Part shown: positions 53,671 to 54,215 of the stretch, in pieces | Position numbering within the stretch: position 1 is the stretch's first letter | Layout: each line of letters starts with the position of its first letter | Assembly (NCBI GenBank): GCA_026989455.1 | Contig: JALSJH010000094.1 | Coordinates: 1-54,215, forward strand | DNA from: Chromatiales bacterium | Lineage (GTDB): Bacteria; Pseudomonadota; Gammaproteobacteria; RBG-16-57-12 | DNA length: 54,215 nt | Direction: 5' to 3' | The notes under the pieces: model-generated | What the model saw: only the letters and a program-made list of their open reading frames with translations | Databases searched by the model: none | What the model was told of the DNA's origin: nothing | Translations under genes and position numbers: made by a program

Positions 53671-53776
53671 AAAGTACCTTCTATCTATTTTCTGAAGAAT
53701 TGCCTCACCGTAAAACAACACAACCAATATGTATATTTAATTCGTCCGAAAGAAGCTTTAAACCCTCGTTTCCAGC

Positions 53777-54034
53777 GCTGATCGCTATGGAGAGCGAAGC
53801 GGGGGCGATTAGCCGCCGATAGGCCACGCCGTCTGCATATTCGTAGTGCGAGGGACGAGCGGCGAAGAAGATGCAGCAGTGGCTTTAGTGGCCGTAGAGT
53901 CATTGAGGGGATTATGGCGTAGCACAACGAGGAACGATGTTGTGCGGAGCCGTAATGGACGCAGGACATTCGGGGCAAAAGGAATCAGTTGTCGCGTAGG
54001 CGAGTCAATTTTTGGCAGAGATGCCAGAAAATTG
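53777..54034. repeat. Array of four long hairpins with a recurring GA-rich loop motif
   Basis: No credible protein frame covers it. Stems: (1) gctgatcgc 53777-53785 with gcgattagc 53805-53813; (2) gccac 53823 and ctgcat 53833 with atgcag 53871 and gtggc 53879; (3) attatggc 53911 and gcacaac 53922 with gttgtgc 53939 and gccgtaat 53949; (4) caatttttggc 54006 with gccagaaaattg 54023. Loops 2 and 3 share cgagggacga / cgaggaacga; loop 1 has tggagagcga; and cgaggtagcga follows stem 4. It may be a structured RNA, a second Csr-type decoy (about seven GGA on the plus strand), or a folded mobile repeat. The rest of 53,671-54,121 is empty. Confidence 0.55.
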
Positions 54035-54121
54035 GTCACGAGGTAGCGACACATTCACGTTTCCAGTATAGGCTTCAACTTATCTCTGTTTAATACCCTC
54101 GTAAGATTATCAATCGGGCAT

Positions 54122-54151
54122 AAAAAAAGGCAACCTTTCGGCCGCCTTTAG
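54122..54151 (-). terminator. Terminator of the CsrB-like RNA
   Basis: Stem AAAGGC / GCCTTT closing a GAAA-capped inner stem, followed on the minus strand by seven T. It ends the RNA described above and isolates it from the hairpin array. Confidence 0.8.
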
Positions 54152-54215
54152 TACCACTACTACTCCAAACCGGACGTCCTGTCCGCAGCACCTCCCTGGT
54201 GCAAAGCTCATCCTT
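54122..54215 (-). ncRNA. 3' end of a CsrB/RsmZ-type regulatory RNA, 5' part outside window
   Basis: Read on the minus strand: AAGGATGAGC, then a hairpin GCACC-AGGGA-GGTGC (54202-54188), then CGGAC-AGGAC-GTCCG (54185-54171), a TTTGGAG, a small TAGTA/TACTA stem, and a terminator AAAGGC...GCCTTTTTTT with an inner CC-GAAA-GG (54151-54122). Repeated GGA exposed in short hairpin loops, then an intrinsic terminator, is the layout of RNAs that sequester CsrA/RsmA. The family call is by structure, as the RNA is cut by the window edge. Confidence 0.65.

Follow-up and report, generated by a model that had tools for sequence, protein, structure and literature searches.

A gene-less, strongly folded repeat family of Gammaproteobacteria that probably moves as single-stranded DNA at the replication fork

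Introduction

HEARO/IsrB omega-RNA elements are structured mobile sequences of about 300 nt, some copies of which carry no ORF. Among mobile sequences that use single-stranded DNA, IS200/IS605 elements insert into the lagging-strand template (PMC6006769), and a lagging-strand bias has also been reported for RmInt1, a group II intron of the endonuclease-free type (PMC8914252).

We analysed a 54,215-nt stretch of DNA from a Chromatiales bacterium (contig JALSJH010000094.1, positions 1 to 54,215; hereafter referred to as the window), near one end of which a first-pass annotation had noted a run of four hairpins. We report that this segment is almost certainly one copy of a mobile structured element, which joins RNA-like covariation with replication-strand-biased insertion.

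Results

A strongly folded segment with defined ends

The four-hairpin fold proposed by the first-pass annotation proved to be real, none of 100 to 200 shuffled sequences folding equally well. As RNA, the plus strand of 53768-54070 is predicted to fold at -111.1 kcal/mol (z = -3.5; 0 of 100 shuffles as good) and the minus strand at -86.6 kcal/mol (z = -3.3; all 100 shuffles fold worse). As DNA, positions 53776-54057 gave -52.6 (z = -4.2) for the plus strand and -45.8 (z = -4.1) for the minus strand, both beating their shuffles; the plus strand is the stabler of the two as either nucleic acid. The element is 282 bp long and gene-less: its ORFs have no Pfam match, in agreement with the annotation's view that no believable protein is encoded here.

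The segment itself stands, but the limits originally given to it (53777-54045) do not; the ends of other copies set them at 53776-54057 (Table 1). The motifs tggagagcga (53788), cgagggacga (53849), cgaggaacga (53928), cgaggtagcga (54039), attatggc (53911) and gccgtaat (53949) were all recovered where the annotation had put them, and some of what had been read into them needs revision. The sequence cgaggtagcga does not lie 3′ of stem 4, because its GCGA takes part in the closure of that stem, in which GTCGC (53991-53995) pairs with GCGAC (54046-54050). Domains 2 and 3 are branched rather than simple stem-loops. Loops 2 and 3, almost identical here, differ from each other in G037 (see below) and in other genomes, so their likeness does not characterise the family.

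Table 1. Features of the window copy and its flanks
Feature	Position	Strand	Basis
Presumed mobile structured element, full-length copy, 282 bp	53776-54057	+	Ends from alignment with copies of G001, G002, G083, G018, G037, NORP103, G250 and the Methylomonas plasmid
Target side of left junction, T-C-CAG, with conserved C four bases before CGCTG	53771-53775	+	C at -4 in other copies
5′ terminal hairpin, GCTGATCGC...GGCGATTAGC	53777-53813	+	RNAalifold pairs; two-sided changes in 6/12 pairs
GCGAAGC mini-hairpin motif within hairpin 1 loop	53794-53800	+	Stem covaries in some copies (GC/GC, GCC/GGC, GGC/GCC)
GCC-GATA-GGC mini-hairpin motif, alternative to or competitor of the domain 2 base	53815-53824	+	Excess of C-GNNA-G tetraloops
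Domain 2, branched hairpin, GGCCACGCCGTCTGC...GCAGCAGTGGC...GTGGCC	53822-53893	+	Two-sided change in 19/20 pairs, 53 distinct copies
Domain 3, enclosing the ATTATGGC/GCCGTAAT hairpin	53899-53967	+	Inverted repeat; covarying pairs
Domain 3 inner hairpin arms	53911-53928 and 53939-53956	+	Inverted repeat
3′ terminal hairpin, TGTCGC...GCGACA	53990-54051	+	RNAalifold pairs; found in almost every full-length copy read
3′ end AC-ATT-CA, right boundary motif (A/T/G)C-NNN-YR	54051-54057	+	Right end constant per genome
9-bp direct repeat CGTTTCCAG, left copy	53767-53775	+	Exact match
9-bp direct repeat CGTTTCCAG, right copy	54058-54066	+	Exact match

The last 146 bp of the window (54070-54215), beyond the element, recur with 96.6% identity at the end of another contig of the same genome (C45, L003) and are conserved in G002 (82%); this is a further repeated segment, possibly a structured one, that lies at a contig break.

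Copies and distribution

The covariance-model and copy-number search suggested by the annotation returned many copies within and between genomes. Besides the full-length copy, the window's own genome contains a truncated one (92% identity over 159 bp), along with several decayed fragments. In a sample of 94 genomes, copies were found in both genomes of the same genus (G001, Gammaproteobacteria bacterium MC-02, and G002) and in four other gammaproteobacterial genomes; bearers include G039 (WH4.bin33), and further copies occur in a Chromatiales MAG (354-166) and in Thiotrichaceae NORP103. A covariance model built from the first 137 positions matched 34 of 369 sampled Gammaproteobacteria genomes, and in a broader draw of 398 genomes of the phylum it matched the window's own genome only. 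Family members measure about 150-315 bp; at one extreme stand the 99% identical copies of G250, at the other a shortened form found in G315. Plasmids of Methylobacter and Methylomonas carry copies as well: a G037 copy used as query found two Methylococcaceae plasmids, the window and G130 copies found none, and neither a pattern search of IMG/VR nor a search of phage records gave a match.

The richest genome is the complete, 3.45-Mb genome G037, where a 20-base pattern was counted 348 times on the two strands together and the reversed-pattern control not at all. We read 1.2 Mb of it, about a third of its length, and obtained 120 full copies, with a median identity of 96.8% to one of them; few were truncated, and the 5′ end was missing in only 1 of 124 matches. 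With up to 348 copies per genome, this is a large mobile-sequence family outside Rfam, in which seven loci had no match either at the gathering threshold or up to E = 1. We found no earlier description in Rfam or in open-access papers; subscription literature lay mostly outside the search, so that a prior description is possible.

Repetition, strong structure and precise ends characterise the element. Every aligned copy starts with CGCTG and ends a few bases past the GCGAC stem, on a common plan: a flanking C-NNN, a 5′ hairpin from CGCTG, two branched domains, a terminal GTCGC...GCGAC hairpin and the right-boundary motif. The right end reads GCTTG in all six Methylomonas plasmid copies and all four G250 copies. 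The orthologous locus of G002 has the two flanks in conserved form but lacks the element, which identifies the window copy as a lineage-specific insertion. The G002 locus is not a clean empty site, because other sequence occupies the place; a 31-aa fragment of that sequence resembles an ISAs1 transposase by eye and has no Pfam match.

Several individual loci deserve separate mention. The copies and flanks at L013 and L014 (G018, contig C17, and G039, contig C10) are near-identical in genomes assigned to different families, which suggests horizontal transfer or a mis-binned contig. G083 contains several copies (L023, L026, L029, L032) of a shorter relative of about 210 bp with the GGACGCAGGACGTCCGCGGCAAAAGGAATCAACG segment in common; this genome apparently harbours two subfamilies. 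On contig C3 of the window's own genome (L005:71-565), a 164-aa ORF consisting mostly of tandem GDEPCDKKAAAAA repeats lies upstream of a translation-GTPase-like gene. On the Methylomonas sp. AM2-LC plasmid CP157006 (148634-150658; L266:48634 to L267:658), a group II intron that encodes its own reverse transcriptase interrupts an element copy within the domain-2 hairpin, and a second copy on this plasmid (start about 159514-159614) has the same intron sequence at the same point. On this plasmid the intron has targeted the element more than once; we rejected the intron as the element's own gene, as it is an insertion into the element. No autonomous, ORF-bearing version emerged from the other candidates: matches to the left end only in G000 (L004, L005, L007) were decayed fragments, and two divergent G037 copies, at 931863 and 1500659, contained no recognisable candidate gene.

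Covariation among lineages and decay of single copies

In 53 distinct copies, 25 of the 32 base pairs of the 5′ half showed two-sided changes. Standard pairs filled 94.4% of the cells, as compared with 77.8% in shuffles and at most 46% when the partners were slid, and the covariation value of 0.404 exceeded those of shuffles (0.144) and of the slid controls (0.05 at most); the alignment had been fitted to the structure and is hence biased in favour of pairing. An earlier MAFFT alignment of 14 copies, for which no covariance model was used, already had two-sided changes in 13 pairs. The annotation had taken near-identical copies without covariation as the mark of a mobile repeat. The copies are there and the covariation is not missing; the element is both repeated and covarying.

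Base changes within G037 tell how this structure is maintained. Rare changes fell on stems in 57 cases and on loops in 26, in proportion to size (176 and 106 positions, respectively). Variants common to at least five copies fell on stems in 11 cases and on loops in 16, including one T-A to C-G compensation, and the stem/loop split of the two classes differs (Fisher p = 0.012). Since rare changes strike stems as they do loops, single copies decay without their structure being spared; together with the loop-favouring lineage variants, this means that structure is kept in multiplying lineages and not for the host at each site. The sequences of single copies give no hint of a use to the host. Strong covariation in a bacterial intergenic region thus need not imply a functional host RNA.

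Insertion site and orientation

In G037 insertion takes place three nucleotides downstream of a C, and the direction of the replication fork determines the orientation. The C at -4 from CGCTG was present in 96% of the 120 copies; position -5 was A or T in 79%, and -3 to -1 were variable. The same flanking C preceded 37 of 38 copies from other genomes. No target-site duplication was detected among the 120 G037 copies, where no pair of flank positions agreed by more than about 0.10 beyond chance, and none was visible at the recent G250 and Methylomonas plasmid copies. The 9-bp repeat that flanks the window copy was likewise absent around the G037, G250 and Methylomonas copies tested; it is either a pre-existing repeat of the target, where it may have been present beforehand, or the product of a different insertion event.

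We separated the replication arms of G037, the one genome used for the orientation test, by GC skew. On the positive-skew arm, where the plus strand is leading, 66 copies were in plus and 10 in minus orientation (76 in all), and on the negative-skew arm 7 were in plus and 37 in minus orientation (44 in all; Fisher p = 6e-15). Overall, 103 of the 120 copies (86%) were co-oriented with the leading strand (p about 3e-16), so that the strand drawn in Table 1 lies on the lagging-strand template in 86% of cases. Neighbouring genes were co-oriented in only 56-59%, the bias of the copies held whatever the direction of the neighbouring gene, and only 4 of the 120 copies lay inside a longer ORF. IS200/IS605 elements show the same kind of strand bias, as do group II introns of the endonuclease-free type.

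DNA-like mini-hairpins

Most members carry GCGAAGC, or variants with covarying stems, in the loop of hairpin 1. Of 41 copies, 35 contained C-GNA-G mini-hairpins and 30 contained C-GNNA-G tetraloops, whereas mononucleotide shuffles gave 7.8 and 7.9, respectively. GNA and GNNA loops closed by two G-C pairs have been described as exceptionally stable in DNA (PMC4686876). The third base was a pyrimidine in 34 of 41 GNNA loops, by which the RNA rule GNRA is broken; only 7 of these 41 loops fit it. The conserved d(GCGAAGC) and GC-GNNA-GC mini-hairpins would therefore favour single-stranded DNA over RNA, short of proof.

Candidates for the moving enzyme

None of the genes at the loci examined was consistently linked to the element. 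Y1_Tnp genes (IS200/RAYT-type) were present in 18 of 20 bearers tested (7/7 at first, 11/13 further), and no Y1_Tnp match was obtained in G026 and G146. In the G026 assembly eight copies score identically, many of them lying at contig ends, and a Y1 gene could be absent from the assembly rather than from the genome. A RAYT profile gave strong matches (E < 1e-70) in 7 of 7 bearers and 18 of 87 other genomes; this co-occurrence is suggestive but circular, because the profile was made from the bearers, and its threshold was chosen after the matches had been seen. A RAYT gene of G037 lies about 200 bp from one element copy, which is unsurprising with a copy every 10 kb; around the other Y1 loci searched, all from the first seven genomes, no element was found. 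Two of the three Y1 (RAYT-type) genes of G037 look frameshifted (L142, L159), leaving one that is intact (L153) in this genome of 348 copies.

G037 had neither an RVT_1 nor an IS91-type gene, and DEDD_Tnp_IS110 genes were absent from G037, G026, G315 and G000. A TnpB gene (Cas12f1-like, OrfB_IS605) is located about 70 bp from a copy on the Methylobacter sp. YRD-M1 plasmid (L263:2652-3758) and directed away from it. We took this neighbourhood as chance, as no similar gene occurred at the other loci apart from a distant one carried by the Methylomonas plasmid. Our first candidate for the mover, and the likeliest kind, is an HUH/Y1-type (IS200/RAYT-like) nuclease, although we name a Y1-type enzyme only tentatively, at short of even odds.

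Discussion

We favour, with a probability of roughly 0.6, the interpretation that the element is non-autonomous and that, served in trans, it enters the lagging-strand template as folded single-stranded DNA, in the manner of IS200/IS605 or REP-like elements. That insertion is single-stranded and fork-dependent seems likely in itself. The plus strand, when exposed on the lagging-strand template, would fold as single-stranded DNA; a protein made elsewhere would recognise the two terminal hairpins and cut the strand, and the element would then be joined into another single-stranded stretch. We adopted insertion in trans, with Y1 as the first candidate, because no gene is consistently linked to the element. 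Several points count against this model: the interior domains are conserved more strongly than known single-strand transposons need; a single C three bases from the junction is unlike the IS200/IS605 tetranucleotide and the CT/CA sites used by RAYTs; the element has no transposase tied to it, G026 and G146 give no Y1_Tnp match, and two of the three Y1 genes of G037 look frameshifted; the exact 9-bp repeat at the window copy is not predicted; and the orientation bias comes from a single genome.

A narrower version, in which a REP/REPIN-like element is mobilised by the RAYT type common in these genomes, could appeal to the frequency of Y1_Tnp among bearers, to the strong profile matches and to the RAYT neighbouring a G037 copy. 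We regard it as rather unlikely, given the circular profile with its post hoc threshold, an adjacency that is unsurprising at this copy density and that recurs at none of the other Y1 loci searched in these first genomes, the two bearers without Y1, and a hairpin foot with no GTAG/CGTC tag and no inverted doublet. The elaborate, covarying and conserved interior would suit an RNA element, ribozyme-like or protein-bound, that enters single-stranded DNA at the fork by reverse splicing or reverse transcription, as group II introns without an endonuclease do, and so would the strand bias known from RmInt1 (PMC8914252) and the missing target-site duplication. The lack of RVT_1 in G037 despite its 348 copies, for which recent loss of the reverse transcriptase or an undetected class of it is possible, argues together with the rarity of 5′ truncation against present reverse transcription; the poor fit of the GNNA loops to GNRA and the absence of any group II or other Rfam match in the element further make this explanation distinctly improbable.

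A conventional MITE moved by a DDE transposase would likewise be short, gene-less and multicopy, and the 9-bp repeat at the window copy would agree with it, but there is no terminal inverted repeat beyond CGCTG/TAGCG, recent copies (the 120 of G037, those of G250 and Methylomonas) show no duplication, and the replication-strand bias is strong; this origin is very improbable. The first-pass annotation had left the choice between a folded repeat and a second CsrA-sequestering RNA beside a probable CsrB-type RNA. Its folded repeat is upheld by the many copies, the covariation and the absence at the orthologous locus. The CsrA decoy, which it based on GGA content and on nearness to that RNA, has virtually no chance of being correct and we reject it: some loops do hold GGA, with ATGGA in the loop of hairpin 1, but the count is at chance level (8, with 7.5 expected), the orthologous G002 locus is without the element, the decay of copies does not spare stems, and Rfam gives no match. 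There is also a possible, if on balance doubtful, reading as an undescribed class of element, in which the folded single strand is itself the substrate that is recognised and the mover, acting at replication forks, is not a Y1 enzyme, a reverse transcriptase or an IS110/IS91 enzyme, but possibly a host replication or recombination protein. The element offers a clean test case for the question of whether selection in a transposon can act on a folded single strand of DNA as its unit.

With IS200/IS605 elements and their derivatives (PATEs) the element shares terminal hairpins, the lack of target duplication, insertion after a fixed flank position, the bias for the lagging-strand template and, with the derivatives, gene-less copies moved in trans. 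It differs in its flank, where a single C is nearly fixed and not a whole tetra- or pentanucleotide directly 5′ of the left end, in its conserved and covarying interior domains, and in that no cognate TnpA was found and two bearers are without Y1. REP, BIME and REPIN sequences served by RAYT (TnpA_REP) resemble it as structured, extragenic sequences in hundreds of copies that are probably moved in trans, with a RAYT in most bearers. Unlike REPs, which are 20-50 nt long or form an inverted doublet and are species-specific, the element spans about 150-315 bp in four domains and is conserved across many families of a class; its terminal hairpins begin with CGCTG and GTCGCG, and its GTAG is internal, with no terminal GTAG/CGTC tag. 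QMITE1 and QMITE2 of Coxiella are likewise folded, gene-less repeats of a gammaproteobacterium, but they have terminal inverted repeats and direct repeats (PMC5896051), the latter of 7-9 bp in the QMITE2 entries examined.

Among RNA-related systems, HEARO/IsrB elements are similar in size, structure and ORF-less copies, but no Rfam HEARO match was obtained up to E = 1 at seven loci and no linked IscB/IsrB gene was seen. IS110 bridge-RNA elements also include a structured non-coding segment, but no DEDD gene was present in the four genomes named above and the target specificity of our element is a C only. Group II introns, with their domain V and intron-encoded reverse transcriptase, differ in that the element has no Rfam match and G037 no RVT_1. 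By analogy, the element would work like an IS200/IS605-derived or REP-like element, yet it fails the defining tests of both, having no tetranucleotide and no tag, a larger size and a conserved interior.
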